Notes under the pieces: model-generated
What the model saw: the letters and a program-made list of their open reading frames with translations, nothing else
Database searches by the model: none
Told to the model about the DNA's origin: nothing
Position numbers and translations under genes: made by a program
Shown here: positions 3,342-47,522 of the stretch, piece by piece
How the letters are laid out: every line of letters starts with the position of its first letter
Numbering within the stretch: position 1 is the stretch's first letter
DNA from: a virus
IMG/VR virus record: IMGVR_UViG_3300042691_021558
Location: 1 to 59,770 of that record
Reading direction: 5' to 3' (one strand)
DNA length: 59,770 bases

Positions 3342-3680
3342 TTAATCTTTAAGTAAATCTTTCTTTGTGTTCTTTTTCACTTCAAAATACGTATCAATTA
3401 GTTTGTCAATACGTTTGTCAGTGTATGCTTTGCTTTCGCGATGCATTTCATCCATCACACGATGCATACTTTCATCATTGCGATTAATTTGGTTTCTCAG
3501 AGTTTGTTCCACCATGTTGATGTCTCTGAAGATTTCGCGTTCGGTATCTTCCTGGCGCTTTTTTAATGGTAGCAATTCTTTTGCTAACGCTGTTACCTTA
3601 AGCACACCTATAACGATTGCAACTACAATTGCAAACACAATCATCGTAAGTATACCTATAGCAAATGATCCTATACTCAT
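3342..3680 (-). CDS. membrane protein with C-terminal coiled coil, 112 aa
   Basis: The start at 3680 is fixed by an ideal Shine-Dalgarno (AAGGAG, 7-8 nt before ATG); the longer frame to 3719 is rejected. Residues about 2-32 form one strongly hydrophobic segment (MSIGSFAIGILTMIVFAIVV...). Residues about 40-100 are a charged heptad-like helix (KKRQEDTEREIFRDINMVEQ...), and the tail is Lys-rich. The architecture resembles small phage spanin- or anchor-type proteins, but no family is recognised. The gene sits inside the 12-bp inverted repeat. Confidence 0.65.
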   Translation of the reverse strand: MSIGSFAIGILTMIVFAIVVAIVIGVLKVTALAKELLPLKKRQEDTEREIFRDINMVEQTLRNQINRNDESMHRVMDEMHRESKAYTDKRIDKLIDTYFEVKKNTKKDLLKD

Positions 3681-3700
3681 AATAGTTCTCCTTGGTTGAT

Positions 3701-3712
3701 GCCCGGGCAGGT
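3701..3712. repeat. right arm of a 12-bp inverted repeat
   Basis: GCCCGGGCAGGT lies 21 nt upstream of the ATG at 3680. In the minus-strand mRNA it can pair over 12 bp with the arm at 3324-3335 beyond the stop codon. Confidence 0.7.
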
Positions 3713-3722
3713 GGATCATTAA

Positions 3723-5631: not shown

Positions 5632-7614
5632 TTATCTGAACAATGTTACATGCCCGTGCAACATGGACTTTCCATCTGTGTCAGGATCGCCATACGTAAC
5701 CATGTAGAAATAAACTCCATCTTGGCACATCCTGCCTTGATATGTTCCATCCCATCCTGCATTTGCATCATACGACTGCCAAATGAGTTGTCCCCAACGA
5801 TTATAGATAGTGAGCTCGAACTCATACGGATCGAAGCCAGAAGTAAAAACGGGTTGCCACATGTTGTTATATTCATCGCCATCCGGTGTAAACGTGTTAG
5901 GAATGAATATCAAAGTCTCTGGACATTGTGATACAGTTACCGATGCAGTCTGAGTATTAGATATGCACCCATTTGCATAATATGTTACAGATACCGTATT
6001 CACGCCTTCCATGCTCCACGTTATGGTTTCATTCAATGTGTTTTGCTGGATTGTGTCACCCATCCATATCCATTCATAGTAACCACCAGGCGGCGTGCTT
6101 TGTGCACTCCAAGTTATGTTTGTTATATCTAACTCACATAATTCATAGAATGCATTATATGGCGTTATAGAATCTAATACTGGTGTCGGATACACTGTAA
6201 TTTGTATGACCGTATCAAACACACAACCGCTTTGCTGATATTCATATGTTATCGAGTTGGTGCCAACTGCTATGCTAGGATCAAACTGTACTCCGGTTAC
6301 TCCGATTCCTGTGAATTGTCCTCCTATAGGTACTGCTGATAAATTAACAACATCATCATACTCACACAAAGGCGCCTGTGGTTGTATGACAGGATCGATA
6401 TTAAATATGAATAAATCAACTGCTTCAGTTAAACCGACGCACCCATTAAGCTCCGGCGTTACTTGCACTGCTCCTGGAATGAATCCTGGTGGTAATGCAC
6501 TCCAATCCACCGTAATGCTATCTGTACCTTGTCCTGATGTGATAACACCAACCGCATCCCAAACAAATATAACTCCTGGTTGTGATGTTGTAACATAACT
6601 AGCTAGGTTTGATTGCCAACAAATTGTGTCTGATGACTGTATTGGAGTGACAACGGGAATTGCAGTTCCAGGTAACACAAACACAGTGTCTGGTCCAGGT
6701 CCGACTGCGCCATTACATGTAGACCAACCTGCATTGCAAATTGGATAAACAAATCGACAAGTATACTGTGCTCCAGCGGCTGGTGGTGTTACTGTGATTG
6801 AAGCTCCAGTTCCTATAGGTGCTGCTACTCCTACTTGGTACCAAGTTAATGTAGGTGTAACCGTAGGTCCGTCAGGAGTCCAACGCCACGAATCATTGGT
6901 TGCGGTCCACGCAGTTGAGTTTCGTCCTGGCACGGCTACTGCTGCAGTACCTGTTGCATTGTGTATGGCTTCAACGGCAGTACCACCCGACCATTGCAGA
7001 CAGGCAGGCTTGTTTTGTATATGGTTTTCAATCACATTGGTTGATTCGTATATTACTATGTGAAATGTTCCAAAGTTATTTGTGCATGAAAACATTGGTA
7101 CTCCGATCCAACTCACTGTAAGTTTTCTACAAGGTGCAACTCCTGATACTTGATATCTTATTTGTCCACCTAGGCCAGGATGCCAATCCTGCCACGGTCC
7201 CATGATACAATTTCTAGGGACTAATGCATTTACCGTTGGTACTGTTTGGGATGTAAACGTAGTAGGTTGTGCTGGGCTAAATGATATCCATCCATTGGAT
7301 CCTACGTAGAACTGAGTATAGGTTTGACCATAGAAACAAAACGTGAATCCTATATTAAAAGGACCTTGCTGTGAATCATCAGTCATTACCAAATTAGTTC
7401 CTGTGTTAGTTTGTGCTGCATATGGAATGCTAGTAACTGCGTATGCTGTGGTTTGTTTTGGATTTGTCCCTGCTGCACATTGTGATAAATCTGCGGTCAA
7501 TGTTGTTGATGCAACGCCACACGGTAATGTCTGATCAGGACCTAATGCCGGACAATACTGAGAATTAACTGTGCTAGCAGCTAGCAGTATTAAAAATGTA
7601 AATAAGTGTTTCAT
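5632..7614 (-). CDS. secreted surface protein with T9SS type B (gliding-motility) C-terminal sorting domain, 660 aa
   Basis: The N-terminus MKHLFTFLILLAASTVNSQ is a Sec signal peptide. Residues about 20-250 form a Cys-rich beta domain (FNIGFTFCFYGQTYTQFYVG; SNGWISFSP) like the N-terminal modules of Bacteroidota surface proteins. Residues about 250-560 look like Ig/PKD-type repeats. Residues about 570-660 match the T9SS type B sorting domain: IPNTFTPDGDEYNNMW, LTIYNRWGQLIWQS, GWDGTYQG, CQDGVYFYMVTY. By family knowledge such proteins are exported through the host's T9SS to the cell surface or medium. It has its own late-type upstream element. Striking cargo for a phage. Confidence 0.85.
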   Translation of the reverse strand: MKHLFTFLILLAASTVNSQYCPALGPDQTLPCGVASTTLTADLSQCAAGTNPKQTTAYAVTSIPYAAQTNTGTNLVMTDDSQQGPFNIGFTFCFYGQTYTQFYVGSNGWISFSPAQPTTFTSQTVPTVNALVPRNCIMGPWQDWHPGLGGQIRYQVSGVAPCRKLTVSWIGVPMFSCTNNFGTFHIVIYESTNVIENHIQNKPACLQWSGGTAVEAIHNATGTAAVAVPGRNSTAWTATNDSWRWTPDGPTVTPTLTWYQVGVAAPIGTGASITVTPPAAGAQYTCRFVYPICNAGWSTCNGAVGPGPDTVFVLPGTAIPVVTPIQSSDTICWQSNLASYVTTSQPGVIFVWDAVGVITSGQGTDSITVDWSALPPGFIPGAVQVTPELNGCVGLTEAVDLFIFNIDPVIQPQAPLCEYDDVVNLSAVPIGGQFTGIGVTGVQFDPSIAVGTNSITYEYQQSGCVFDTVIQITVYPTPVLDSITPYNAFYELCELDITNITWSAQSTPPGGYYEWIWMGDTIQQNTLNETITWSMEGVNTVSVTYYANGCISNTQTASVTVSQCPETLIFIPNTFTPDGDEYNNMWQPVFTSGFDPYEFELTIYNRWGQLIWQSYDANAGWDGTYQGRMCQDGVYFYMVTYGDPDTDGKSMLHGHVTLFR

Positions 7615-7642
7615 GGTAACCTTTTAAATAAATATGTAAAGT

Positions 7643-7675
7643 AAAAAAGCCCCGGAGTATTACACTGCGAGGCTT
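7643..7675 (-). terminator. rho-independent terminator
   Basis: On the minus strand AAGCCTCG, a 13-nt loop and CGGGGCTT (8 bp with one G:U) are followed by a run of six T. It ends transcription before the promoter of the 660-aa protein gene. Confidence 0.8.
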
Positions 7676-7715
7676 TAAATGTGTCAAGTTATCTGAGTGA
7701 TAAGGAGTATAGACA

Positions 7716-8915: not shown

Positions 8916-8994
8916 GTTTTCCTTGTTTAATTGTTTAACTTAATTAATAATAAGATACTTAATTCTAATTTCCAAATGTTTTTTAAACTTTTTG

Positions 8995-9068
8995 CACGCC
9001 TGGATGGATTCGAACCACCAACACTCGGATTTGGAATCCGATGCTCTACCAATTGGAGCTACAGACGC
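8995..9068 (-). tRNA. tRNA-Trp (anticodon CCA)
   Basis: Cloverleaf readable on the minus strand: acceptor GCGTCTG with CAGGCGT (two G:U pairs), D arm GCTC/GAGC, anticodon stem TCGGA/TCCGA with loop TTCCAAA, T arm GGTGG-TTCGAAT-CCATC. Discriminator G, no encoded CCA. 74 nt. Confidence 0.9.
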
Positions 9069-9074
9069 ATTTTG

Positions 9075-9212
9075 TAGTCAGGACAGGATTCGAACCTGTG
9101 TCTTTTGTTTCGGCCATGCGAGCTCATCTGCATGCTTAGGCTTTTTGTCTTCTCGGCTCCGGAACCTTACGACTGTAGCGTCACCTGATTGGCTACCAAT
9201 TGCCACCTGACT
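9075..9212 (-). tRNA. tRNA-like RNA, 138 nt, with oversized central region
   Basis: The ends are fully tRNA-like: perfect 7-bp acceptor AGTCAGG/CCTGACT with discriminator A, D arm GGC-AATTGGTA-GCC and a perfect T arm ACAGG-TTCGAAT-CCTGT. Between D and T arms lie about 90 nt instead of about 27. No standard 5-bp anticodon stem with a 7-nt loop can be drawn adjacent to the D arm. The insert has its own hairpins (GGTT-CCGG-AGCC; ATGC-10 nt-GCAT nested in GCC/GGC). It may be a tRNA with an insertion, a decayed fusion or a tRNA mimic. Amino acid identity not assignable. Confidence 0.55.
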
Positions 9213-9223
9213 AACCGTTAAAA

Positions 9224-9421
9224 TTAATACTCTCGGCCCTCGAACAACTTAATCAATCGGTAATGCCATTCTGCAGGAAAATCTGCGAGTCTGGAACTAC
9301 TCTTTGCTTGTTGATGTGCCTCTTTTCTTGTCGTCGCCTCTACTATACGGTAGGGCGCTTGGTATCCATTTCTGTGACACCATTCCACTCTCCAAAGTGG
9401 ATACTGTGCTTGCGCTTTCAT
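9224..9421 (-). CDS. small hypothetical protein within the tRNA cluster, 65 aa
   Basis: The ATG at 9421 (MKAQAQYPLWRVEWCHRNGY) is preferred over an in-frame TTG three codons upstream. The product is a compact basic protein with an aromatic N-terminal half and a helix rich in Arg/Lys/Ala (TTRKEAHQQAKSSSRL). The pattern WRVEW...EATTRKEAHQQAK is reminiscent of very small phage proteins with a beta-beta-alpha layout. Function unknown. It lies between tRNA genes on the same strand. Confidence 0.55.
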   Translation of the reverse strand: MKAQAQYPLWRVEWCHRNGYQAPYRIVEATTRKEAHQQAKSSSRLADFPAEWHYRLIKLFEGREY

Positions 9422-9483
9422 AATGATCAATGATCATTGTCAGCCATAAGAATTGAGCATGTTACCCTTGTTTATTAATTTAG

Positions 9484-9566
9484 TACTCGGAGCGGGACTT
9501 GAACCCGCACGACCAATTGGCCAACAGATTTTAAGTCTGTCGTGTCTACCATTCCACCACCCAAGC
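9484..9566 (-). tRNA. tRNA-Leu (anticodon TAA)
   Basis: 83 nt on the minus strand: acceptor GCTTGGG/TCCGAGT (several G:U), D arm of the Leu type (GTGGAATGGTAGACAC), anticodon stem/loop CAGAC-TTAAAAT-CTG with TAA, long class II variable arm (TTGGCCAATTGGTCGT) and T arm GCGGG-TTCAAGT-CCCGC. Discriminator A. Confidence 0.88.
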
Positions 9567-9638
9567 AAGTGCCTGTCTTTCCAGGCTGTACAACAAGGAT
9601 ATTCTTTGCGCATTAAGGACTCTCTTGTGCTTCCTTTG

Positions 9639-9712
9639 TACTCCTAGCAGGACTCGAACCTGCAACGCCTAGATCCTAAATCTAGTGTGTCTACCAATTC
9701 CACCATAGAAGC
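9639..9712 (-). tRNA. tRNA-Leu (anticodon TAG) with short variable loop
   Basis: 74 nt: acceptor GCTTCTA/TAGGAGT, Leu-like D arm (GTGGAATTGGTAGACAC), anticodon arm CTAGA-TTTAGGA-TCTAG with anticodon TAG, and T arm GCAGG-TTCGAGT-CCTGC, discriminator A. Its variable region is only GCGTT (5 nt), whereas bacterial tRNA-Leu normally has a long variable arm, as its neighbour does. Decoding of CUA is expected from the anticodon; charging by host LeuRS is less certain. Confidence 0.85.
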
Positions 9713-9716
9713 TTGA

Positions 9717-9879
9717 GCGTAGTGGGACTGCAGATCCCTGAGGCTCCTACGCAAGTTGTTCCTCTTTATGCCGGCGCCGCTCCCTGCACGGGACTTGTAC
9801 TTTGTCCTATTAAGCGTTTATGCAAAAGACACATCCTGGTACGCCGACCTGGGTAACCCAAATCCAATGCGTGATGTGT
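9717..9879 (-). other. structured spacer between tRNA genes
   Basis: This 174-nt gap between tRNA-Leu(TAG) and tRNA-Glu has no ORF but several hairpins on the minus strand: GCGTAG/CTACGC (9717-9752) enclosing GGGA-7 nt-TCCC; ACACATC/GATGTGT (9829-9879) enclosing ACGC/GCGT and TGGG-TTA-CCCA; and GC-rich GGCGCC and CCC-GTGCA-GGG elements between. It does not fold as a standard tRNA. It may be a processing element or a further structured RNA. Confidence 0.35.
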
Positions 9880-9886
9880 ACTTTAG

Positions 9887-9958
9887 TAGTCCCACGGAGA
9901 ATCGAACTCCGATTTCTAGGATGAAAACCTAACGTCCTAACCGTTAGACGATGGGACC
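9887..9958 (-). tRNA. tRNA-Glu (anticodon TTC)
   Basis: 72 nt on the minus strand: acceptor GGTCCCA/TGGGACT, D arm GTC-TAACGGTTAG-GAC, anticodon arm TTAGG-TTTTCAT-CCTAG, T arm CGGAG-TTCGATT-CTCCG, discriminator A, no encoded CCA. Confidence 0.92.
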
Positions 9959-10942: not shown

Positions 10943-11767
10943 TTAATGTATTCGTTTTAATATGTCACTTAATCGGCTATACATTTCTACTGCTATCGGT
11001 ACTGACATCAGTGCAATAAGAAAATTGTTTACATACGAGTATACTGTAATCACACTACCAATTGTAACATGTTGGGTTGTAAGTACCAACACTATGATCG
11101 ACGCAAACAAAAATATGTTTTTAATCATCATGATGAGAAACCAATTCTTTCCTTGCAGAGTTGATTGGAATATCTCTAGTTGGCGCCGGCGATTAAAAAA
11201 CAGCACTGAGGCATCATATCCAGCTTGTATAGCGTCTCCTTTGCGTTCATAATGTGTGTTCCTCAGTTTGATTGCCTGCTTTATTTTGCTGTATAGTAAG
11301 GTTACAGCAGCAAGTATCATCACGAATGCAATACTAACCAACACACCAACCTGCCAATTTTCTGAGTAAATAAACCCGATGGATCCTACGATTGTAACAA
11401 TGGTTGCGATATAGTAATGCACATATCCTTCCAATACATTAACAATATCATGGGCCATATCTGTTCTAGCAATTTTGGTTGATGCATCATGATGCGGTTG
11501 CCGCAGAAATCGAAACACGATGCTGTTGTATATTCGAGTGTACACTTTGGTATCATACACCATTCGTTTATAATTAAAAAATGCAGATAAGAAATATGAG
11601 GTTCCTAACAGCACCAACCAATGCCATGTGCCACTCATCAGGCCGTCAATGCTTTTACCAAGCAGAAATGGTGTTGCTAGATTAGACAGCTCGGTGACGA
11701 GCATGAACAAGTAAATGAATGATAGCTGGCGTCGATGCTGTTTGAATATCTCATAAATTTTATTCAT
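10943..11767 (-). CDS. ABC exporter-type transmembrane domain without ATPase, 274 aa
   Basis: Six hydrophobic segments (approx. residues 15-38, 45-62, 118-138, 140-160, 215-235 and 240-260) in the arrangement of a type 1 ABC exporter membrane domain. The intracellular-loop features are recognisable (FRFLRQPHHDASTKIARTDM like the exporter's first coupling region, and the ARTDMAHDIVN segment). No Walker A, signature or Walker B follows; the protein stops where the nucleotide-binding domain would start. Either a half-transporter that borrows a host ATPase, or a non-transporting derivative. Linked to GNAT and thioesterase genes. Confidence 0.75.
   Translation of the reverse strand: MNKIYEIFKQHRRQLSFIYLFMLVTELSNLATPFLLGKSIDGLMSGTWHWLVLLGTSYFLSAFFNYKRMVYDTKVYTRIYNSIVFRFLRQPHHDASTKIARTDMAHDIVNVLEGYVHYYIATIVTIVGSIGFIYSENWQVGVLVSIAFVMILAAVTLLYSKIKQAIKLRNTHYERKGDAIQAGYDASVLFFNRRRQLEIFQSTLQGKNWFLIMMIKNIFLFASIIVLVLTTQHVTIGSVITVYSYVNNFLIALMSVPIAVEMYSRLSDILKRIH

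Positions 11768-15183: not shown

Positions 15184-15184
<1 letters not shown>
14921..15184 (-). CDS. hypothetical helical protein downstream of groEL, 87 aa
   Basis: Begins MKTFPKRNSQDDAKLFAKFK, start overlapping the groEL stop (TGATG). A basic stretch (GKKKKRAAEEFSR) is followed by a helical acidic domain ending MFAYEDWVK. Size and helical layout are those of small transcription accessory proteins, but no match is clear enough to name one. Its synthesis is coupled to GroEL. Confidence 0.6.
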
Positions 15185-16815
<1,631 letters not shown>

Positions 16816-20297: not shown

Positions 20298-21377
20298 CTA
20301 TTTGTAAACTTTTTTCATAGTTCCGTCATTATATACTTCGAAATATATTCCGTGCATGGTGTTAAGACTGCCCGCGGATACTTCTTGACCCATCATGTTA
20401 ATTAGTTTAACAACATATTTGTCAGCTGTGTTATCAACTAGTATTGGTCCGTATATTTTAAATTTTCCGTCTTTGTCTACTTGAACTAAACGATAATAAT
20501 TCATGGTTGGCTCAAAGTCGTTGTCAATAAATGTATATGATGAAACCATAGTACTGTTTCCTACTGCTGGTTCCAGACCGATAACTGATTTTTCTGTAAA
20601 CTCACTGGTCGTTGTTCGTTCAATCCAATAGTAATCTGAATTATGTTCTGAGGCTGTTTTCCATGCCAATAAGTTTCCAGATTGCGTTGGTAGTCCTTCG
20701 AAGGACATCATTTCTACCGGTAGCGGATCAATTTGAATTAGTTCAATATTATCTAACCACCATTCTTCCCCGGCTGAATTAACTCGACAATAAAAATCTA
20801 CAGCAACTGATGTTAAGTTTGATGCTAACATCAATGTGTATGTTGCTGGAGTTGCGGTTGATGCTCCTGCTGCTGCTTGGTAAACATCGCCGGTTGGTGC
20901 TGCTGAATTTGTAAATGTTCCGTTTGCTGTATGTATAACTACACCGGTGTTGGTATAAGGCCATGTTGCATTTGAATTGCCTGTAATTCTCATTTCATTT
21001 ACATATGTGCCACCGTTTGCTGATACTTGCACACTTAAATAATCAGCAGCATCTAAACCGCGTGTTGCAGAAGCTGATGAGTATGTATAGGATGCTACTC
21101 GGAATCTAAGTTCATACATTTTGGTTGGATCCAAAGTTACAGTTGGTAGTGAATACCAATCTTGTTCTATTCCAGATGAACCATTACCTACGCCAAGAAT
21201 TGCTGCAGATGTGGATGGAGATACAGATGCATTAGTAAACCAACCTGATGTTGCACCAAACAACCAACCTGCTGACAGATAAGTTGTTGAAGAAGTTTCC
21301 ATGTTATCGAATTCAATAACGGTTTGTGTTCTAGCAAATCCTGCTAAAAATACAAATGCTAATAATAGTTTATTCAT
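20298..21377 (-). CDS. secreted protein with T9SS type A sorting domain, 359 aa
   Basis: Start at 21377 gives a clean signal peptide (MNKLLLAFVFLAGFARTQ); the in-frame extension to 21491 overlaps another small gene and is rejected. Residues about 20-210 form a beta-sandwich-like domain with 'W...W' pairs. Residues about 220-285 contain LAWKTASEHNSDYYWIERTT and YYRLVQVDKDGKFKIYG, the module that precedes type IX sorting signals. The last about 45 residues (KLINMMGQEV, GIYFEVYNDGTMKKVYK) are the T9SS type A CTD. Predicted to be exported through the host T9SS. Confidence 0.8.
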   Translation of the reverse strand: MNKLLLAFVFLAGFARTQTVIEFDNMETSSTTYLSAGWLFGATSGWFTNASVSPSTSAAILGVGNGSSGIEQDWYSLPTVTLDPTKMYELRFRVASYTYSSASATRGLDAADYLSVQVSANGGTYVNEMRITGNSNATWPYTNTGVVIHTANGTFTNSAAPTGDVYQAAAGASTATPATYTLMLASNLTSVAVDFYCRVNSAGEEWWLDNIELIQIDPLPVEMMSFEGLPTQSGNLLAWKTASEHNSDYYWIERTTTSEFTEKSVIGLEPAVGNSTMVSSYTFIDNDFEPTMNYYRLVQVDKDGKFKIYGPILVDNTADKYVVKLINMMGQEVSAGSLNTMHGIYFEVYNDGTMKKVYK

Positions 21378-21522
21378 GTGATTTGTTTTTGTGTTTTGTT
21401 TTACGGGTATATGTTTTTTTAGATTGTTCCGTTCTAGAAACAAATCGTCCATCAAAGAAGCCTTGTTGTTTTTGTGATTCTCGGGAAGCACCTAAATTAA
21501 TTTTTAGTATCTGGTTGTTCAT
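21370..21522 (-). CDS. small basic protein, 50 aa
   Basis: ATG at 21522 opens MNNQILKINLGASRESQKQQ and the frame ends at 21370 (...TKHKNKSHE). Its codon content is protein-like and very basic, and it overlaps both neighbours, including 8 nt with the T9SS gene. Not recognised; possibly a nucleic-acid-binding peptide. Confidence 0.5.
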   Translation of the reverse strand: MNNQILKINLGASRESQKQQGFFDGRFVSRTEQSKKTYTRKTKHKNKSHE

Positions 21523-31258: not shown

Positions 31259-31831
31259 TTATTTATTAGAGTCAGATGCGTATTTAACACCCATGATAGT
31301 GCCGATGATACTAAAAGCATTTGTTAGCAATATACCAAACATATTACTCCACGTGCTACCAATGATCTGAGTATCTTTATTAACAAACAATGCAACCATA
31401 TATATAACGGTAGTTGTGACACCTACTCCGATTATGATAATAAGTGATATACGAACAATTAGATTGATTAACTCGAACTGAGTTCGTTTTTGTATCATGT
31501 CTAAACTGTCCATGGCGGCATCGCGGGCTGTTTCAGCATCACATTTGGATTGTTCTGCATCCGTTGCTGCTTGTTGAAGTTCTATCATCAACTGTTGATT
31601 TTGTTCGTTTGATTCAACTAGTTGTTTGTTTTGATCTTGTATTTGTTTGGTTATTTCTAATCGTTTTCGTCGATTTTCTTTATCGCGGGTTGTGCATGTT
31701 TTTATATATGCATCAAACTCAATATCATCGGTTGAATCAATTAACTTTAGAATGTTGCCTTCTAGAGCTATATTTTTACGGGCATATAACTCAATTAATT
31801 TTTGTTTAGTATTATCATCTAATACTATCAT
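31259..31831 (-). CDS. coiled-coil protein with two C-terminal membrane helices, 190 aa
   Basis: Residues about 45-112 form a long coiled coil (EITKQIQDQNKQLVESNEQN ... AEQSKCDAETARDAAMDSLD). Two membrane segments follow: about 120-146 (LINLIVRISLIIIIGVGVTT) and 158-180 (MFGILLTNAFSIIGTIMGV). The start overlaps the response-regulator stop as ATGA. It is an attractive output partner for the receiver protein upstream, because no other effector is encoded in the operon. That link is inference from gene order. Confidence 0.65.
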   Translation of the reverse strand: MIVLDDNTKQKLIELYARKNIALEGNILKLIDSTDDIEFDAYIKTCTTRDKENRRKRLEITKQIQDQNKQLVESNEQNQQLMIELQQAATDAEQSKCDAETARDAAMDSLDMIQKRTQFELINLIVRISLIIIIGVGVTTTVIYMVALFVNKDTQIIGSTWSNMFGILLTNAFSIIGTIMGVKYASDSNK

Positions 31832-32265
31832 CGATACACTTTAAATGGGGCAGTGCGTGCTTTATACCCGTCATAGTCTGCGCGGAATTGTTCTAAACGA
31901 GGTTCGATATCATCTGACTTAATTATCCAAAACTGTGCGCCGGCTTGAATTGCCTTTGCTTGTTCTTCTGGTTCATTTGATGATGAGATGATTCCAATAA
32001 CCACGTTATTACCATACTCAAAATTAATTTTTCTGATAAGTTCGATACCATCAAACGAACTACCAATAATATTCAAGTCAACAAATACACATTCGGGTTT
32101 ATCGTTAGCATCGCCACTTTGAAACCATTTTTGAAACAGTTTTGCTGCTTCGTCGGAACTATTTAATGAGTTTAAAGACAAACTTATATCGAGCAATGAA
32201 CATGCATCTTCAAATACTAAGTGGAATAAATCTTCATCATCTACCAATAAAATTGAATCAATCAT
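31828..32265 (-). CDS. response-regulator receiver domain protein, 145 aa
   Basis: Single receiver domain without a DNA-binding or other output domain. Key residues: acidic pair D9-D10 (ILLVDDEDLFH), phosphoacceptor D63 (CVFVDLNIIG), Ser motif about S94-S96 (GIISSSNEPE) and Lys116 (FWIIKSDDIE), all in the expected order and spacing. The start overlaps the histidine-kinase stop by 8 nt. It is the probable phosphorylation partner of that kinase. Stand-alone receivers usually act by protein-protein interaction, as in CheY or Spo0F. Confidence 0.85.
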   Translation of the reverse strand: MIDSILLVDDEDLFHLVFEDACSLLDISLSLNSLNSSDEAAKLFQKWFQSGDANDKPECVFVDLNIIGSSFDGIELIRKINFEYGNNVVIGIISSSNEPEEQAKAIQAGAQFWIIKSDDIEPRLEQFRADYDGYKARTAPFKVYR

Positions 32266-33871
32266 TTTTGCTTTCCTTTATTTTTATTTTCATTTTTGTG
32301 CCTGTTTCATTTTTTTCACAGGTAATATTAAATCCATGTTCTTCTAAAATAGCAACACAAATATTTAAACCCAAACCAGTTCCAGCTTCAGTTTGGCCTT
32401 CTTTCCGAGTATATGGTTTTGATAAATGATCAAAATCTTTTTGTGTAATACCTCTACCATTATCTTGAACGTAAATGGTATCATCATCGGAATATATTTT
32501 AACAAACTTAGTGTCAGAATCATTATACTTTAAACCGTTTCTAATCAAGTTATCCAATGCTGTACAGAACAATGCTTCGTTTACTTCGATGGTTGGTAAC
32601 TGGTCGATAATAACTTGACTACTGTATGCAGTTGATGACAAGTAATCGGATAATATCATTTTCAAATCACATTCAGCTTTATTTAGTACAACATCTTTTT
32701 TTACGAGATTGGTAAATTCATATACACCTTTATACACTTTTTGTGAATGTTTCAATCCTTCTTTAATCATGCGGATTGGGGCTTCAATTTTTAATGAACT
32801 AATATCATCAGAACTTAATCTTCTTTCTAACGAACTAAGTCCCCTAGGCATATACGTATTAATACCTGAATGCATATCGTGTCTTAATATCTTAGCTGCG
32901 TGTTCTAGATACGTATTTTTCTTTTCAATCTCTTTCTTTTGTTCATATGAATCGGTAATATTAGTAGCAATTTTCAATATGCGATATATCTTGCCGTCCA
33001 TTCCGATAATTGGATTATAAGTTGATTGTAAATACACTAAAGAGCCATCTTTTTTAACTCTTGTAATTTCACCGGTAAATAATATACCGTCATTTAGTTT
33101 TTTCCAAAAAAGAGCATATTCTTCACTGTTAAAATGTGTGTCGTCTATAAATATTCTGTGGTGTTTTCCGACTAGTTCATCAGCTGAATCATATCCCATG
33201 GTTGTTAAAAACAAGTCATTAGCAAAAATAATGTTACCTTCTAAATCAAATTCAATAACTGCGTTAGATTTATTTATGGCATTCATTCTATTACGAATTT
33301 CTACTTCTTTTTTCTTAAGCTCCGTAACGTCTTGTCGTATTGATGAAAACCCTTCTAAATTGCCATGTTTATCAAATCGGGCTCTAATGTATGTGTCGAC
33401 ATAATATAGGTCACCTGTTTTTGTTTTGTTGGTGACAATTGCATTCCATATCTCACCTTTCATCACTGTTTCATACATCTTACCCCAGTACCCATCGGGT
33501 TGTAGACCAGAGTTTACGATGATATGATCTTTACCGATAACCTCATCTAAAGACCATCCTGATACTTCTTCAAATTTTTTATTAACGTATGTTATTTTAC
33601 CAGTTTTATCAGCAATTGAAATAATTGCAGCTGTGTCAATAAACTCATCAGTATCTTTTATTTTTTTTAATAAAGTACTTGTTATATCAGCTGCGTGTGA
33701 TTTCATTAAAAAATAAAATAGTGGTAAGAACACTAAAAAACACACAATTTCAATTCCGCGTGTAATGTAACTAGAATCTAATACTGAAAAGAATACTAAA
33801 CCTTTTGTTATAGCAAAAACTACTAATGTTACTATGGTAATACCTTTAAGTATTTTATGTAAACTAATCAT
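32258..33871 (-). CDS. membrane-bound sensor histidine kinase with two PAS domains, 537 aa
   Basis: Two N-terminal membrane helices (about 10-33 and 38-58) leave a short periplasmic loop. PAS 1 spans about 75-185 (IISIADKTGKITYVNKKFEE) and PAS 2 about 203-310 (FDLEGNIIFANDLFLTTMGY). The phosphoacceptor region is LRHDMHSG (H331). The ATP-binding domain carries N-box TALDNLIRNGLKYN (N441), G1 VQDNGRGI and G2 TEAGTGLGLN. Starts 1 nt after the holin stop and overlaps the response regulator. A complete kinase in a phage lysis operon is highly unusual. It could sense redox, ligand or membrane state through PAS and control lysis timing; that role is inference. Confidence 0.9.
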   Translation of the reverse strand: MISLHKILKGITIVTLVVFAITKGLVFFSVLDSSYITRGIEIVCFLVFLPLFYFLMKSHAADITSTLLKKIKDTDEFIDTAAIISIADKTGKITYVNKKFEEVSGWSLDEVIGKDHIIVNSGLQPDGYWGKMYETVMKGEIWNAIVTNKTKTGDLYYVDTYIRARFDKHGNLEGFSSIRQDVTELKKKEVEIRNRMNAINKSNAVIEFDLEGNIIFANDLFLTTMGYDSADELVGKHHRIFIDDTHFNSEEYALFWKKLNDGILFTGEITRVKKDGSLVYLQSTYNPIIGMDGKIYRILKIATNITDSYEQKKEIEKKNTYLEHAAKILRHDMHSGINTYMPRGLSSLERRLSSDDISSLKIEAPIRMIKEGLKHSQKVYKGVYEFTNLVKKDVVLNKAECDLKMILSDYLSSTAYSSQVIIDQLPTIEVNEALFCTALDNLIRNGLKYNDSDTKFVKIYSDDDTIYVQDNGRGITQKDFDHLSKPYTRKEGQTEAGTGLGLNICVAILEEHGFNITCEKNETGTKMKIKIKESKND

Positions 33872-35863: not shown

Positions 35864-36718
35864 TTATTCTTCAGAAACTGCTCGACCTATTTGTCTAGTC
35901 CAATCTAGGTCTGTGCGCACTATAACATTTTTAGTCATTGCGGCTACTAACATTGTTCTGTCGACACCTAGTTGGTTTGCAAGATATGCTAACGCAGCTA
36001 TGTCTTTAGGAAAACAATGCCCCCCAAAACCAAAATCGCCATCATGGCCAGGAACTGACCAATGTGAATTGCCCAATCGATCATCATAACGGGCATATTC
36101 GATTACTTTATCATAATCAATGTTTAAACCTTGGCAGATCTGATACATTTCGTTTGCAAATGAAATTTTTGTGGCTAAGAATGTATTAGTTACATACTTG
36201 ATCATTTCAGCAATGGTACTGCTTGTTTTAATGATTGGCACTTTAGGAAATGCCTTTTCAAAATATCGTTTAACAATTGTAGTAGCAGAGTTAGGTCCTC
36301 CGAGTATGATTCGATTTTGATTTTTATAATCATCAACTGCGTTAGACTCTGTTAAGAACTCTGGATTAAACACAATATCCAATTCAGTGTATAATTTATT
36401 TAATCGATCTGTTGTTCCTGGTGGAATAGTAGACTTAACAACTACAATATAATTTTTCTTATTGTATGCAATTACGTTGTTTTGAATTTCTGTTAGTGCA
36501 ACATTTAAAATTTTTAAATCACATTCACCAGATTTCATCATCGGAGTAGGAACACATACAAATGCAATATCAGTGTTTAAAACTACATCTTCGATGCCGT
36601 TAACATTGCGAAATTTGTTTCCATCTTTATCATATGCTTTAATATCAAATACATGTTGCATTCCTAATCGCACAGCATTTCCTACAAACCCCTGGCCAAT
36701 AATTCCTAATGTATTCAT
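35864..36718 (-). CDS. UDP-glucose/GDP-mannose 6-dehydrogenase-like protein, 284 aa, lacking the C-terminal domain
   Basis: Oxidises UDP-hexose to UDP-hexuronate in this family. NAD-binding start LGIIGQGFVGNAVRLGM; CVPTPM; VVKSTIPPGTT; FNPEFLTE; catalytic-Cys region FGFGGHCFPKD. It ends at about residue 284, while full enzymes have about 430 residues with a third UDP-binding domain. It may be a natural short form or a subunit partner. First gene of the glycan island in transcription terms is upstream; this is one of the last. Confidence 0.85.
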   Translation of the reverse strand: MNTLGIIGQGFVGNAVRLGMQHVFDIKAYDKDGNKFRNVNGIEDVVLNTDIAFVCVPTPMMKSGECDLKILNVALTEIQNNVIAYNKKNYIVVVKSTIPPGTTDRLNKLYTELDIVFNPEFLTESNAVDDYKNQNRIILGGPNSATTIVKRYFEKAFPKVPIIKTSSTIAEMIKYVTNTFLATKISFANEMYQICQGLNIDYDKVIEYARYDDRLGNSHWSVPGHDGDFGFGGHCFPKDIAALAYLANQLGVDRTMLVAAMTKNVIVRTDLDWTRQIGRAVSEE

Positions 36719-36719
36719 A

Positions 36720-37577
36720 TTACAATCCGTTAATATATTGCTTTAATTTATCTGTCGGTGTCCAATTTAATAATTCTAACGCTACATCTCGTTCACGTAA
36801 TGTTATACGATAGTTTCCTTTTTGATCTGGTAAATATGTTGTTGTGCAATTGAACTTCTCTATAAACATGGCTGCTACTTCATTCATTGAATAATTTACT
36901 CCAGTACCCAATTCCCACGCATCCTCGATATAATGTTCAGTTTCCATGATTCGAATCAATCCATCAACAATGTGGTCTACATGTGTGAAATCTCTGCGCT
37001 GTTCGCCATCACCAATAATAGTAATTGGTTGTCCGTCTCGTACTTGTTTTCTCCAAATTCCAATCACAGCTGCATAGTCGCCATCCACAATTTCATTTGG
37101 TCCATACACATTGTAAAATCTTGCAATCTGCACTTTAAGTCCATAACACTCTTCATACATCTTACAAATTTCTTCTCCTAAGAACTTGCTTAAAGCATAT
37201 GGTGAAATCCTAGGATTATGCCAACGGGATGATGATCCTGCATACACAACCTTTGCATCCGTATGTCTAGCATATTCTAAAACTTTGAAAGTTCCTGTTG
37301 TGTTTGCGTCATATGTTTCTAATGGTAGTTTAAATGATATTTGAATACGTGCAACTGCAGCAATATGGAATATAACATCAAATTTATCAACTGCTGGATT
37401 AAATATATTATCAATGTTATTAACATCATCTATAATGTATTTAACATTCTCTATTTTATTGTCCAATGTGCCGCAAGATAAATTGTCAATACATGTTACG
37501 CCATGTCCTAATGCAACCAATTGTTTACATAAGTTTGAGCCAATAAAGCCTAGCCCACCTGTTACTAAAATTTTCAT
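36720..37577 (-). CDS. NAD-dependent sugar epimerase/dehydratase (GalE-like), 285 aa
   Basis: Extended short-chain dehydrogenase: MKILVTGGLGFIGSNLCKQL (GxxGxxG), VIFHIAAVARI, VVYAGSSSRW and SPYALSKFLGE (the catalytic Y-x-x-x-K), FYNVYGPNE. Works on a nucleotide sugar; the exact reaction (4-epimerase or 4,6-dehydratase) is not determined. Starts 10 nt after the GT2 gene. It shares its sugar-pathway context with the dehydrogenase downstream. Confidence 0.85.
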   Translation of the reverse strand: MKILVTGGLGFIGSNLCKQLVALGHGVTCIDNLSCGTLDNKIENVKYIIDDVNNIDNIFNPAVDKFDVIFHIAAVARIQISFKLPLETYDANTTGTFKVLEYARHTDAKVVYAGSSSRWHNPRISPYALSKFLGEEICKMYEECYGLKVQIARFYNVYGPNEIVDGDYAAVIGIWRKQVRDGQPITIIGDGEQRRDFTHVDHIVDGLIRIMETEHYIEDAWELGTGVNYSMNEVAAMFIEKFNCTTTYLPDQKGNYRITLRERDVALELLNWTPTDKLKQYINGL

Positions 37578-37587
37578 ATTCTAATTT

Positions 37588-38352
37588 CTATTTGTTTGTT
37601 ATAAATTTTTTGTTTGTTAATGGATCGTGTCCTATGTATCCACCCCATTTGTATCGGGCATATTCATGGCCGGCTTGTTCTGCCAAGTTACGTTTCTCTC
37701 CATTTGCAGAAACTGCCGCAAAGTGATAAAAATGACAGTTCCATGTTCTTAGCATACGTAGTCCTGATAGTTGACATTTTAAAAAAAAGTCCCAATCGGC
37801 TACCATACCCATTTCATAATTTTCATCCCATCCGCCAACTCGAAGATAATCAAGCTTTGACATAAAGATAGGAAGTGTGGATCCACATTCCTCAGTTTTA
37901 TCCCCAGATGCATAATGATAATCAAACAACCAAAATGCTTCAAGATCGAATGATGCAATGTCAGTTCCTAAATTTTCTATAATAAACTGAGGAAACATAC
38001 TAGGAAACGGTTCTACTTGATTAGGTGTTATTACAGCACCTTCTTGCCATTCTTCTTCCAATGTAGAATCCCAAAATCTTGGAAACACGTTATCGTCATT
38101 AACAATAAGTATTTTATCATATCGCGAATTGTATACACCTAGATTAGTTCCCCGACATTGACCTGCATTTTGTTCTAAGTTCAATATATCAATTGAATCT
38201 TTCCAACGGTCTAAGACCTCTTTATTCAAGTCATAGTACCCGTCTACAACAACGATAATCTGATTTTTATTGCATTGTCCTTCAATTGCAGAACGCAAAC
38301 AAAGATCCAATGCGTCTGGACTTTTATATGTAGGAATTATTACTGATATCAT
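37588..38352 (-). CDS. GT2 glycosyltransferase, 254 aa
   Basis: ATG at 38352 overlaps the upstream stop as ATGA. MISVIIPTYKSPDALDLCLR and ILIVNDDNVFPRFWD (the D-x-D-like metal site) identify a GT-A fold family 2 enzyme. GGWDENYEMGMVADWDFFLK (ED-like) supports it. Sugar donor and acceptor unknown. Part of the glycan island. Confidence 0.8.
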   Translation of the reverse strand: MISVIIPTYKSPDALDLCLRSAIEGQCNKNQIIVVVDGYYDLNKEVLDRWKDSIDILNLEQNAGQCRGTNLGVYNSRYDKILIVNDDNVFPRFWDSTLEEEWQEGAVITPNQVEPFPSMFPQFIIENLGTDIASFDLEAFWLFDYHYASGDKTEECGSTLPIFMSKLDYLRVGGWDENYEMGMVADWDFFLKCQLSGLRMLRTWNCHFYHFAAVSANGEKRNLAEQAGHEYARYKWGGYIGHDPLTNKKFITNK

Positions 38353-39044
38353 AGTGTTGACCAATCTGTTAATGGTGATAACCAAGCTGTTTCACCATGG
38401 GTAGCATAACCAGGAATCGGTGTTATTAACAATTGGTTTTGTTTTCTCAATTCTAAAAACATATGAAAATCATTAGGATGTGTACCGGCTGTGTGTGTTC
38501 TCAGAATTGTTTCTGTAAATTTCAATGTTGATACTTTGCTAGCAAATGTCATCGTAGTTGAATTAGTAATTTTCCAATGGCATGAATCCGTTAAGTAAAT
38601 ACGGGTATCTTCAGCACCGCCTTCACAGTATGGATTTCCGCCGCGGCTTGGATCTAAGTACTTGTCTGGATGATCGTATAGTGCAACGAATGATGCACCT
38701 AAGTCAAATCCTTGTTTCAATACATCTGGAGAACCTTGCTTATGTAAATAATCATTTTCTACAAAATACACAATTTCATCATCTGCATAGGTTAATGCTT
38801 TATCTAACGCTAAATTGAATGTGCCGGCACCATTACCAACCGATACCTGAATGATATTTGCTGGGTCAATGTATCGTTTAATCATTGCTAACGTAGCATC
38901 ACTACAATTGTCCGCAATAATTAGAATGTCATAAATATGATTAAAAAATACATTGCAGAAATTTTTTAAACATGATTCATTGTTGATGTAGTCTGGCTTT
39001 ACTTTATTGTAACCAGCATCTGATATTCTATATATTATTTTCAT
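38349..39044 (-). CDS. glycosyltransferase, GT-A fold, 231 aa
   Basis: MKIIYRISDAGYNKVKPDYI; ILIIADNCSDATLAMIKRYI and VYFVENDYLHKQ (acidic metal-binding motif) are typical of GT-A enzymes, as is the later ALYDHPDKY. ATGA overlap with the downstream GT2. Donor unknown. Confidence 0.75.
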   Translation of the reverse strand: MKIIYRISDAGYNKVKPDYINNESCLKNFCNVFFNHIYDILIIADNCSDATLAMIKRYIDPANIIQVSVGNGAGTFNLALDKALTYADDEIVYFVENDYLHKQGSPDVLKQGFDLGASFVALYDHPDKYLDPSRGGNPYCEGGAEDTRIYLTDSCHWKITNSTTMTFASKVSTLKFTETILRTHTAGTHPNDFHMFLELRKQNQLLITPIPGYATHGETAWLSPLTDWSTL

Positions 39045-39997
39045 TTTAAAAATACGTTGTTAAACTGTTTCATTACCAACTCTGGTGAATACATTGAATA
39101 TGCATTCCAATTTTCATGTTTATTTATAATATCCGGAAAATTTGTTAAAATTCCAATTAATTCGTCATAGTTGTTATAGATTATTGATTTATCTCCTAGC
39201 ATTTCAATATGTGCTAAATCATTGAATCCGGAATCACACCACGATGTTGTTATAATTGGTTTATTTTTTACAGAAAATTCAGCTACAGTTAAACCAAATG
39301 ATTCTCCTCCATTTCTTGCGTGTATACACGCATCACATGTATTAATAAATCCAATCTTTGTAGTCATATCAGATGTGCCACTTATAAAAAATACATTTGA
39401 CTCATCGCAAAATTGATTAGAATTCATAAACAAAAAATACATATTTTTGTTAGCTCGTGCAACATTTATAACAGCTTCGCGAGCAAATGGAATATTAAAT
39501 GAATCCGGGCCGCCATAATATCCAAATACTAGTGCATCTGTTGGTATATTAAAAAATTGACGATAGTTTTCCATATGGTCGTATTTTAAAATATCAACAA
39601 TATGCGGGACAAATGGCAATGTACCGCCTGACATTTGTGTTGATAACCATTTAGATACATATGCATATACATCTCCGTGTGGATCATGTAACTGAAAAAC
39701 GGAATGTACTAAATTTTTAGCATTCGGTACTAGTTTGCCATCATTCATACCAGCTTTTATATAATAAACGGCATCAATTTGATTTTGATCGATATAAGAT
39801 ATAACATCATCAAATTTGTCATATAAAAATACATTAAACTGTTTTTGAAATTTATCCAATGCAGCTAAATCTGAGTTTCGATTTGATATAATTACTGAAT
39901 CATTGTTTAATAATTCTTGATTATAATATGCATAATCAAATAAGGCAATTTCAGTTCCTCGAAGGCCTAGTTGTTCACTATGAAATGCAATTTTCAT
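39041..39997 (-). CDS. GT4-type glycosyltransferase, 318 aa
   Basis: GT-B fold: FGYYGGPDSFNIPFAREAVI, CDACIHARNGGESFGLTVAE (the E-x-x-(n)-E donor-binding motif region) and SWCDSGFNDLAHIEML. Two Rossmann halves, no signal peptide. Overlaps the neighbours by 4 nt on each side. Confidence 0.8.
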   Translation of the reverse strand: MKIAFHSEQLGLRGTEIALFDYAYYNQELLNNDSVIISNRNSDLAALDKFQKQFNVFLYDKFDDVISYIDQNQIDAVYYIKAGMNDGKLVPNAKNLVHSVFQLHDPHGDVYAYVSKWLSTQMSGGTLPFVPHIVDILKYDHMENYRQFFNIPTDALVFGYYGGPDSFNIPFAREAVINVARANKNMYFLFMNSNQFCDESNVFFISGTSDMTTKIGFINTCDACIHARNGGESFGLTVAEFSVKNKPIITTSWCDSGFNDLAHIEMLGDKSIIYNNYDELIGILTNFPDIINKHENWNAYSMYSPELVMKQFNNVFLK

Positions 39998-40683
39998 ATA
40001 TTTAAAAAGTTGTTTAATTTGTTAATGTTCATTGTAATATCACCAGGTACCCGATCAGGCTTATACGATGGTTTAACTCGATCATTGGTTTTTATTGCTA
40101 AGTCGTATATAGTTTTAGAATCTGTACCAACATTGTAGACTCCAGTTGCTTGTTGATGAATCAGTTTAACAATTAAATTGCTAATAACATCTACAGAATC
40201 ACAATTTGTATGTATATCTACCCAAGCAGTATCATACGGAAATGGATTAGGTTTATGTGATAATCGACAAATTAAATAGTTGTTACTTCGTAATTGAACT
40301 AATGCATCGCCAACTAATTTTGTGTAACCATACCAAGTTGGTATGTGAACTGGGACATCGGTTTCTGATGCTACTGGTACAGAGCCGGCATAGATATAAT
40401 CGGTAGAAATATGAATTAATTTTTTGTTAGTCGAATTGCATACATCAATTAAATCGTTGAGAGCTTGAAGATTAACGTCCCACGCTGTTTGCATATCTAC
40501 GCCGTATGTATCAGTATATGCAATACAGTTAACTACAGTATCGTATGAATCATTTAGTAAATGTGACCATTCTGATAACTGAGTAATATCAATATTGTTA
40601 TGTGTTCTGGAAATATAGTCCCAATTGGTTTGCCGAATTAATTCTTGTCCCAATAAGCCTTGTCCGAGTACAACTACGTTCAA
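39994..40683 (-). CDS. RmlD-like sugar-nucleotide reductase, 229 aa
   Basis: Short-chain dehydrogenase of the dTDP-4-dehydrorhamnose reductase type: VVVLGQGLLGQELIRQTN, DTVVNCIAYTDTYG, LIHISTDYIYAGSVPV, WYGYTKLVGDALVQ (Y-x-x-x-K). It probably reduces a 4-keto-6-deoxysugar. The start is TTG at 40683, with its first three bases forming TTGA with the upstream stop. Shorter than the usual 290-300 aa. Confidence 0.75.
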   Translation of the reverse strand: MNVVVLGQGLLGQELIRQTNWDYISRTHNNIDITQLSEWSHLLNDSYDTVVNCIAYTDTYGVDMQTAWDVNLQALNDLIDVCNSTNKKLIHISTDYIYAGSVPVASETDVPVHIPTWYGYTKLVGDALVQLRSNNYLICRLSHKPNPFPYDTAWVDIHTNCDSVDVISNLIVKLIHQQATGVYNVGTDSKTIYDLAIKTNDRVKPSYKPDRVPGDITMNINKLNNFLNI

Positions 40684-41969
40684 AATTTAAAATCCTTTAT
40701 AACTTGTTCTATATACATAAATACCTCATCCGTATAATGTGGTGCTGCTCCAATAAAGAACACTGAATCTAAAACTTTGTTAGCTTCTGGATATTTAGAT
40801 GAATCATCTAAAAAACTATAACCTGGATGTAGTAATATGTTCCCGGCAAAATAGTTTCTTGTTTGTATTTTATTCTTTTCTAGATGTTCTACTAGTTTAT
40901 GTTTCAGCCCCGGTGTTTCGCATATGAATGGAGTTCCAAACCAACATGGTTCTGCTGATTCTAAGGTTACCGGAGTTCGTAAATTTGGTATATGCTTTAA
41001 AAATATATCACTAATTACAGTTTTTGATCTTTTTCGTTTTGATTCAATATCATCTAGTTTTTTCAACTGTTCGATGCCGATGGCTCCTTGTAAATCTAAT
41101 GGCTTAAGATTATACCCCATTTCTGAAAATACATACTTATGATCAATTACGCCATCGTAATTATCTAACCACTTATCAAAACGATTACCGCATGTGCCAC
41201 ACGCTAATAGATTTGCTGATCCTATACAATAGCAGTCGCGACCCCACCAACTAATTGACACAAATAACTTTTTTAATTCATCATCATTTGTACAAATCAT
41301 TCCGCCTTCTCCGGTGGATATATGATGTGCTGGGTAGAATGAATTTGAAAATGCAACGTAATATTCATTTAAATATTTGCCATTCCATTTAGATCCTAAA
41401 CTATCACAATTATCCCCAACAAGTTTCAAATTGTATTTTTCACATAGTTCTAGTAATCTATCAATGTTCGGTGGATTACCTAGTACTGGAGAAACAAAGA
41501 TTGCTTTTGTTTTTGGAGTAATTTTTTGTTCAAGTAAATCCAAATCAAAATTCAAGGTGTCCCATTCAATATCAACAAAAATTGGTTTTAATCGATGTTG
41601 ATAAATTACTGATATTGTAGTTGCAAACCCAACAGGCGACACTATAATTTCATCATCATCAGCCCAATTAAATCTACGCTTCAATGCAGCAATCAAAACC
41701 AAATTGGCTGAACTACCTGAGTTTACCATGTGTGAATGTTTAACATTGAACTTTTTACTAAACTCGAGTTCAAACTTATAAACTCGTTCTCCGGTAGTAA
41801 TCCATTTACCATTCAAAAATGAATGAATTGCAGCTTCGGTTTCTTTTTCATCCCAATATGGTCCTGAGTAATATATTGGAGTAGTGCCCGGTATAAAATT
41901 TTTATTATTGTAAATATATGGAGCTACGTGATTGCCAATTAATGTTTGTATGTCGCTTTTTTGTATCAT
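40680..41969 (-). CDS. RfbH-type CDP-4-keto-6-deoxyglucose 3-dehydratase (E1), 429 aa
   Basis: DegT/DnrJ-like PLP-fold enzyme whose usual Lys is replaced by His: NSFYPAHHISTGEGG (H215/H216). Cys residues C188, C246 and C248 are spaced as in the C-x57-C-x1-C iron-sulfur binding pattern of the E1 enzyme of 3,6-dideoxyhexose synthesis (SWWGRDCYC, then LLACGTCGNRFD). This combination identifies the C3-deoxygenation dehydratase rather than an aminotransferase. It would need an E3-like reductase, not seen here. Suggests the phage makes or modifies a 3,6-dideoxyhexose. Confidence 0.85.
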   Translation of the reverse strand: MIQKSDIQTLIGNHVAPYIYNNKNFIPGTTPIYYSGPYWDEKETEAAIHSFLNGKWITTGERVYKFELEFSKKFNVKHSHMVNSGSSANLVLIAALKRRFNWADDDEIIVSPVGFATTISVIYQHRLKPIFVDIEWDTLNFDLDLLEQKITPKTKAIFVSPVLGNPPNIDRLLELCEKYNLKLVGDNCDSLGSKWNGKYLNEYYVAFSNSFYPAHHISTGEGGMICTNDDELKKLFVSISWWGRDCYCIGSANLLACGTCGNRFDKWLDNYDGVIDHKYVFSEMGYNLKPLDLQGAIGIEQLKKLDDIESKRKRSKTVISDIFLKHIPNLRTPVTLESAEPCWFGTPFICETPGLKHKLVEHLEKNKIQTRNYFAGNILLHPGYSFLDDSSKYPEANKVLDSVFFIGAAPHYTDEVFMYIEQVIKDFKF

Positions 41970-42679
41970 TGTTGTGTATAATTTTTAAATTCAGTAACTG
42001 ATGGAAATTCTGTTAACTTGCCAAAATGTTGTTCTAACAATGGATCAAATTCAAACGGCGGTGTGCCATTAAATGGTGTTGTATACTGATAGTTTCCCCA
42101 TTTATGTTTAACGTATTCTGCATTATGTTGACCAACCTTTAAGCTAGGAGAATTTGGATCAGTAGATGTGGAATTTCCGTTAAACATACTAGGAACATTT
42201 AGATTTATGTTTTGTACATTATGCAATTTACAGCGATGGTCATAATCGTTATCTTCACACCCAGCCCATAGTATATTTTCATCAAATCTACCAACCGTAT
42301 TAAATATGTCTCGATGCATGCAATATAGTGCATATCCAAATCCGTTATTGTATGTGGTAGCTAATGATGTGGCAGTTGAATTATCCCACAATGCATCCAG
42401 AATTTCCAAACTGAATCTGGAATCTTCTTCACTAACAATAACTTTTTCTAGTCCCATATGGTTGAATGCGATATCACATATAAAATTCCATCCTCCTGCG
42501 CAGCCAATATTGGTTGTGGTTGTATAGACATCAAAATTATCAGTTATATACGAATTTAGTTGCTGTCGCCCGTTATCGATAAAGTAAAATTGATATTCAT
42601 CAGAATAATTGGCTAAATTGAACCATTCAGTAAAATAATCATTTGCATTATATCCTAATACAAAAACATGTTTTTTCAT
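41966..42679 (-). CDS. glycosyltransferase, GT-A fold, 237 aa
   Basis: MKKHVFVLGYNANDYFTEWF; TNIGCAGGWNFICDIAFNHM; KVIVSEEDSRFS (acidic site); FDENILWAGCEDNDYDHRCK. The pattern of a small family 2-like enzyme. Overlaps upstream and downstream neighbours by 4 nt. Confidence 0.7.
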   Translation of the reverse strand: MKKHVFVLGYNANDYFTEWFNLANYSDEYQFYFIDNGRQQLNSYITDNFDVYTTTTNIGCAGGWNFICDIAFNHMGLEKVIVSEEDSRFSLEILDALWDNSTATSLATTYNNGFGYALYCMHRDIFNTVGRFDENILWAGCEDNDYDHRCKLHNVQNINLNVPSMFNGNSTSTDPNSPSLKVGQHNAEYVKHKWGNYQYTTPFNGTPPFEFDPLLEQHFGKLTEFPSVTEFKNYTQQ

Positions 42680-43560: not shown

Positions 43561-43918
43561 AACTTTTTTCTTCTATAAATGTAGACCCATATTTCAAGTT
43601 GATTTGTTTTTTAATATCAGCTCTGAGGTCGTTTGTAATGTATACTTGTCGAGCATATTCCACAAACATGTCATCAAACTGTTTTCTGGATTCCATTTCT
43701 CGTAAAACATCTTCAATATCCCACAGTTTAACATTTATTGCAACTAACTGCTCATAATCAGACATTGCAATATTCAAATCCGCAAAAACTATTTCATGCA
43801 AATACAAGTATTCGCGATTAACATTTTCCAACTTGGCAGAATCGGTTATCTTTTGTCGTTTAATGTCTAAGATTGAAAGCTTATCAACAATCTCCCCTAC
43901 TGATACTTCTATATTCAT
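43547..43918 (-). CDS. DUF6165-like protein, 123 aa
   Basis: MNIEVSVGEIVDKLSILDIK matches the 'GE(I/V)(I/V)DK(L/I)(T/S)IL(D/E)IK' start of the short DUF6165 proteins that accompany glycosyltransferases. The rest is acidic helical (REYLYLHEIVFADLNIAMSD). It probably assists neighbouring glycan enzymes. Overlaps both neighbours. Confidence 0.7.
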   Translation of the reverse strand: MNIEVSVGEIVDKLSILDIKRQKITDSAKLENVNREYLYLHEIVFADLNIAMSDYEQLVAINVKLWDIEDVLREMESRKQFDDMFVEYARQVYITNDLRADIKKQINLKYGSTFIEEKSYAKY

Positions 43919-46916: not shown

Positions 46917-46919
46917 AAA

Positions 46920-47516: not shown

Positions 47517-47522
47517 AATAAA

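Follow-up and report, generated by a model that had tools for sequence, protein, structure and literature searches.

A probable type B T9SS cargo protein encoded by T4-like Bacteroidota phages, with a possible role in superinfection exclusion

Introduction

Phage genes whose products carry the sorting signal of a host secretion system raise the question of what a virus would do with a protein placed outside the infected cell. Phage proteins with T9SS sorting domains were described for Cryophage, which was proposed to commandeer the T9SS of its host through them (Bellas et al. 2020, PMC7468147), and this type A case was noted as a unique occurrence (PMC7468147). Here we analyse a candidate type B cargo gene in a 59,770-base IMG/VR record, the whole of which we call the window. 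An earlier note, made from the letters of the DNA, had described its product as a phage-encoded surface protein with a Sec signal, a Cys-rich N-terminal domain, Ig/PKD-like repeats and a complete type B sorting domain. We consider in turn whether the protein would leave the cell, how the gene is related to the phage that carries it, and what role the protein may play.

Domain architecture and export signals

The reading frame was recovered with the coordinates (5632-7614) and the length (660 aa) that had been proposed for it. Its strand, not given in the earlier note, is the minus strand, and the three motifs quoted there (IPNTFTPDGDEYNNMW, GWDGTYQG and DGVYFYMVTY) match it exactly. The following features were assigned to the gene:

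5632..7614, minus strand: CDS of the predicted T9SS type B cargo protein, 660 aa (ATG start; TIGR04131 and CHU_C above curated cut-offs; homologues)
7561..7614, minus strand: predicted signal peptide, residues 1-18 (Q-rule in homologues and hydrophobic leader)
6670..7560, minus strand: N-terminal Cys-rich beta domain, weakly NIDO-like, residues 19-315 (invariant Cys and structure model)
5917..6669, minus strand: Ig-like repeats, residues 316-566 (GhpA profile match and Foldseek)
5635..5904, minus strand: T9SS type B C-terminal sorting domain (CTD), residues 571-660 (TIGR04131, CHU_C, six-frame search, dN/dS)

The leader of the window protein is MKHLFTFLILLAASTVNS, followed by Gln, with a predicted cleavage site before Gln19. 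All 58 distinct and intact homologues share Gln at position +1, preceded by S, G, A, T or N, after a leader of 16-19 aa with a strongly hydrophobic core. Gln at +1 after cleavage is known as the Bacteroidetes Q-rule for signal peptidase I substrates (PMC5837995). Composition and conservation thus bear out the proposed Sec signal as a predicted signal peptide.

The type B domain forms the extreme C-terminus of the protein (residues 571-660 of 660), and the profile is matched through its last position (85/85). NCBIfam TIGR04131, the search suggested in the earlier note, recognized residues 571-660 with 57.2 bits (cut-off 35, E 1.4e-15), and Pfam CHU_C recognized residues 570-654 with 61.4 bits (cut-off 27); with both scores above the curated cut-offs, the description of a complete sorting domain holds. 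A six-frame search of the window record returned a single type B match, at 5635-5904 on the minus strand (E 4.7e-18). The type A profile TIGR04183 reached 14.9 bits on the window protein, below its cut-off of 23, and a PHROGs search with this protein gave no matching family. As to the proposed export through the host T9SS, the type B CTD and the other testable sequence evidence would favour passage by Sec and then by T9SS, and we regard the window protein as very probably a T9SS-exported surface protein. That the host possesses a T9SS is a reasonable supposition by way of the Bacteroidota genomes that carry cellular sister proteins (see below), each of which holds 18-57 type B CTD proteins.

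The Cys-rich character of the N-terminal domain was confirmed by 11 Cys residues that are invariant across 34 aligned phage homologues. A fold search with the model of this domain (pLDDT 83.6, pTM 0.76) yielded no solved PDB structure below E 0.001; its profile matches gave no recognized function and included no carbohydrate- or collagen-binding family. Pfam NIDO was found in 4 of 22 family members (best E 0.0071), a resemblance that offers a weak lead. The Ig-like repeats that follow differ in number between homologues, the full lengths of which range from 654 to 819 aa. Comparison of a sequence profile with the repeats of Aureispira GhpA gave E 4.5e-102 over 14 stretches. The full-length model is all-beta (pLDDT 80.8, pTM 0.44), its top fold match being Ig-like fragments of GhpA, and Foldseek of this model against the GhpA Ig-like repeats gave E 1.9e-13. 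The Ig-like part of the earlier description is thus upheld by profile and fold matches, whereas the PKD part is not, there being no Pfam PKD match.

The phage and its other genes

The window encodes a T4-type clamp loader, sliding clamp and exonuclease. A near-identical 169-kb contig (G001/L002), which has an identical copy of the cargo protein, encodes the Gp23 major capsid protein, a Gp20-type portal, a T4-type terminase, tail sheath, tail tube and a T4 baseplate/hub protein. Judged by gene content, the window represents part of a T4-like myophage genome, and the presence of capsid, portal, terminase, sheath and tube genes on the near-identical contig agrees with the earlier statement that the cargo gene is phage-encoded.

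Four tRNA genes (Trp, Leu, Leu, Glu; 8994-9958, minus strand) are located upstream of the cargo gene, and an Rfam search detected nothing beyond them. On the same strand, the window contains a complete GroEL chaperonin (15184-16812; TIGR02348, 827.9 bits) and, as recognized by eye, an ABC exporter membrane half-like protein without the ATPase domain (10943-11767) and a run of sugar-nucleotide and glycosyltransferase-like genes (36000-51700), which suggests phage-encoded glycan synthesis. A PAS-domain sensor histidine kinase and a response-regulator-like protein are encoded at 31828-33871 (minus strand); relatives of both, and of an adjoining 190-aa protein, occur near the cargo gene in about ten other phage loci.

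A membrane-anchored protein with the C-terminal end ...SKAYTDKRIDKLIDTYFEV is encoded at 3342-3719 (minus strand), and a protein similar to it stands directly upstream of the cargo gene in locus L004. The product of 20298-21491 (minus strand), with an internal start at MNKLLLAFVFLAGFARTQ, is a second exported-looking protein. It ends in what looks like a short type A tail, although neither Pfam nor NCBIfam recognized a type A CTD in it or in its homologues. Relatives of this protein are present in 17 viral loci, in one of which (L035) the gene lies directly upstream of the cargo gene. Two small exported proteins are encoded on the near-identical phage contig (L263, 6335-9470), both after TATTTAT motifs; one of them belongs to the CAP family (43.1 bits, cut-off 21.1).

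Distribution, selection and origin of the family

A scan of environmental viral contigs showed relatives of the cargo protein to be encoded on at least 155 viral stretches, 80 of which were kept, with 58 distinct and intact copies. Within the annotated phage collection, the full-protein query matched in only two uncultured huge phages; a full-length match with the full domain architecture comes from a 634-kb uncultured phage. Each of the 18 larger phage records searched has exactly one type B CTD gene, the cargo gene. Type A cargo scored above the cut-off in three of 16 other phage records, so it is not general.

Median dN/dS among close pairs (63-66 pairs; 63 for the CTD) was 0.113 in the N-domain, 0.171 in the Ig-like repeats and 0.098 in the CTD. 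The values are low in every domain and lowest in the CTD; the copies are thus under purifying selection, and the sorting signal is being kept. Chance is excluded as the source of these matches because of the E-values, the conservation and the dN/dS taken together. One copy (L040) is broken by frame changes, the result of gene decay or of a sequencing error.

A genome scan returned 92 relatives, nearly all from Bacteroidota MAGs. In the tree of N-domains, built by a quick method from the fetched loci only and with long branches among the distant rows, all 58 phage sequences form one clade (SH-aLRT 99), and the sister of this clade consists of chromosomal Bacteroidota proteins of the same layout. 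Four of these chromosomal sister loci were read and have chromosomal-type genes on their flanks. On this tree, the family is of single origin among the phage copies tested, and since chromosomal relatives exist, the ancestral function was not phage-specific. The chromosomal location of the nearest non-phage relatives could also point to host DNA, that is, to a recently captured passenger gene or to mis-classified chromosome pieces. Such an origin conflicts with the single clade of 58 phage copies, with dN/dS of about 0.1 in these copies and with the T4-like structural genes on the same contigs; together with the comparison of chromosomal loci, these observations rule it out, and we grant it hardly any probability.

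Genomic context and regulation

The tail-tube gene is located directly upstream of the cargo gene, on the same strand and at a constant spacing, in 41 of 81 loci, a count that is a lower bound because of contig ends. In these tail-slot loci, a hub-like gene lies two genes downstream of the cargo gene; the one in L018 scored just under the cut-off of Pfam T4_baseplate. Such an arrangement would be expected of a virion (tail) component that is made with the tail genes, with its leader and CTD being relics or serving attachment.

We further scanned the viral contigs with the tube protein, which gave about 600 relatives, 80 of which were kept. In most of the kept loci, the hub-like gene follows directly after the tube gene with no cargo gene between them, and in the others the slot is filled by small membrane proteins or unknown genes. 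Locus L164 (tube 90% identical) represents an empty site, the flanks of which align to L018 at 87% and 88.5%. In L018 itself, the cargo gene sits between a terminator hairpin and the promoter region of the next gene.

The motif TATTTATA precedes the tail genes of these loci, namely the tube gene (38/40), the plus1 gene (33/33) and the sheath gene (24/26). TATTTAT is found before only one of 29 tail-slot cargo copies (1.6 expected); these copies possess TATATT or TATGTT instead (25/29) and have a terminator upstream, so that, by sequence, they bear transcription signals of their own. Outside the tail slot, TATTTAT precedes 22 of 29 cargo copies, including that of the window, versus 1.6 expected. 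Two elements were located upstream of the window's copy:

7628..7634, minus strand: TATTTAT motif, 13 nt before the cargo ATG (putative late promoter element of the phage)
7646..7676, minus strand: hairpin and T-run, possible terminator of the preceding unit (folding scan, -14.8 kcal/mol, weak)

A stricter consensus terminator scan (loop of at most 8 nt) found none upstream of the window's cargo gene. Among the window genes, 11 of 65 have TATTTAT upstream, versus 2.3% in shuffled upstream regions. On the 169-kb contig, the motif is present before the sheath, tube, hub and portal genes, and absent before the polymerase and helicase-type genes and before the capsid gene. It probably constitutes a late promoter element.

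Because of the empty site, the upstream terminator and the absent tail late motif, the tail-slot cargo gene is, on this genomic evidence, an accessory gene (moron) and not a core virion gene. The earlier note had set export against a protein that remains in virions or in the cytoplasm; the accessory tail-slot arrangement argues against a virion protein. Close relatives whose tail genes are normal have nothing in the slot, Gln at +1 is kept in 58/58 leaders, constraint is strongest on the CTD, and in the window's phage the cargo gene, which lies outside the tail slot, is separated from the sheath gene by about 87 kb. Taken with the terminator and the missing slot motif, the empty site and the conserved leader and CTD rule out the tail component, which we rate as very improbable.

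Proposed function

The earlier note had suggested surface remodelling, superinfection exclusion, adhesion or biofilm effects during infection as possible roles. The cargo protein would be made in the infected cell, probably late in the case of the window's phage; Sec would export it, and signal peptidase I would remove the leader ahead of Gln19. The Cys-rich domain would then fold and be oxidized in the periplasm, the type B CTD would direct passage through the host T9SS, and the N-terminal domain would be shown outside the cell on the Ig-like stalk. Phages with the cargo gene thereby probably remodel the exterior of infected cells. Exclusion of other phages could come about if a surface receptor were masked, or through competition for the T9SS output that receptors need.

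We tentatively propose superinfection exclusion as the main role, an assignment by analogy that could well prove wrong. It is favoured because morons of other phages act in this way (PMC10883804), because phage resistance arises in F. columnare mutants of T9SS and gliding (PMC9233685), and because exclusion is also what the Cryophage authors proposed for their cargo of type A (PMC7468147). The putative late motif of the window's copy speaks against exclusion, as it misfits an early-acting protein; lineages may differ in the time of expression. Other points that weigh against our reading are the N-domain, with neither a recognized function nor a solved fold match, the place of the window's copy outside the tail slot, its weak terminator and the existence of chromosomal relatives. 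Taken together, the proposal of a moron-type phage cargo of the host T9SS that is displayed outside the cell and serves most likely in superinfection exclusion appears to us somewhat probable.

Adhesion is the main rival to this role. As an adhesin or aggregation factor, the protein would bind infected cells to one another, to particles or to surfaces and thereby let the progeny emerge close to fresh hosts, and its Ig-like stalk and N-terminal domain would represent a short version of bacterial surface adhesins. Ig-like repeats and a CTD of the GhpA kind agree with this explanation, as do the chromosomal relatives (large cargo proteins of the surface type, 0.5-2.5 kaa) and the late-type motif at the window's copy. 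However, what the protein has in common with GhpA is limited to generic repeats and the CTD and does not extend to the N-domain, and the binding families named above were not recognized; adhesion as the main role therefore seems to us unlikely.

The CTD is the more variable end of the protein, with a mean pairwise identity of 0.55 versus 0.67 for the N-domain. Copies L010 and L015 share 90% of the N-domain and 53% of the CTD, whereas L055 and L073 share 73% and 94%, respectively. As these comparisons have it, CTDs are exchanged between family copies. An exchange as if to match hosts would also suit a decoy or saturating T9SS substrate, which keeps host adhesins and receptors from being displayed by occupying the translocon or PorV and in which the N-domain is not the actor; moreover, some flavobacterial phages need a T9SS-dependent surface to infect (PMC9233685). 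The high conservation of the N-domain would be needless for a mere plug, and we consider a decoy quite unlikely. Returning to exclusion, one tail slot (L169, 3865-5630) contains three separate ORFs of 205, 187 and 191 aa; all three begin with a Q-rule leader, whereas a type B CTD (42 bits) is present in the last one alone. If the protein is indeed an exclusion effector, this slot would mean a multi-chain surface assembly. A broader proposal, that T4-like Bacteroidota phages maintain a dedicated, exchangeable surface effector which works through T9SS only, with swapped CTDs fitted to hosts, and which closes the infected cell to rivals, is speculative and in our view rather doubtful.

Comparison with known systems

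Both this family and the Cryophage cargo are phage-encoded proteins with T9SS sorting domains, the Cryophage set being variable between phage variants (PMC7468147). In Cryophage, the CTDs are of type A and are attached to an endoglucanase, a glycoside hydrolase 39 and a PA14 protein (PMC7468147), whereas the present CTD is of type B and follows a non-enzymatic N-domain and an Ig-like stalk. Unlike the Cryophage proteins, those described here belong to a single family with one origin, which is found in many T4-like phages and has an accessory slot within their tail operon. ORFs with T9SS sorting domains are also found in other Bacteroidota phages, the crAss-like phages, but these ORFs have BACON repeats and no N-domain recognized in common with the family (PMC6949934).

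Among bacterial proteins, the Aureispira grappling hook protein GhpA (PDB 9flp and others) has Ig-like repeats and a C-terminal domain that matches the CTD columns of the family; it differs in its length (5898 aa), its bacterial origin, the lack of the N-domain and the generic nature of the repeats. Homology to GhpA over the whole length, including the N-domain, was ruled out, since the matches cover only the repeats and CTD columns and none comes from profile positions 1-296. The chromosomal Bacteroidota type B cargo proteins L082-L093 share both the N-domain (53-61% identity, best segment) and the CTD, but they are mostly longer (0.8-1.4 kaa) and fall in a clade separate from the phage copies. 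Similar to the exclusion morons Cor and HK97 gp15, the cargo gene is accessory, and those morons act at the envelope against other phages; their sequences (cited in PMC10883804) are unrelated, and none is known to use T9SS.

Our search of the open-access literature found no paper on type B cargo in phage genomes. Phage T9SS cargo as such is already known; the widespread type B variant and a previously unrecorded family are new. These findings suggest that Bacteroidota phages have an established strategy of turning the host secretion system to their own use. The cargo gene offers a handle on the hosts of such phages, which should have T9SS, and it provides a testable case for the link between T9SS-dependent surfaces and phage infection.
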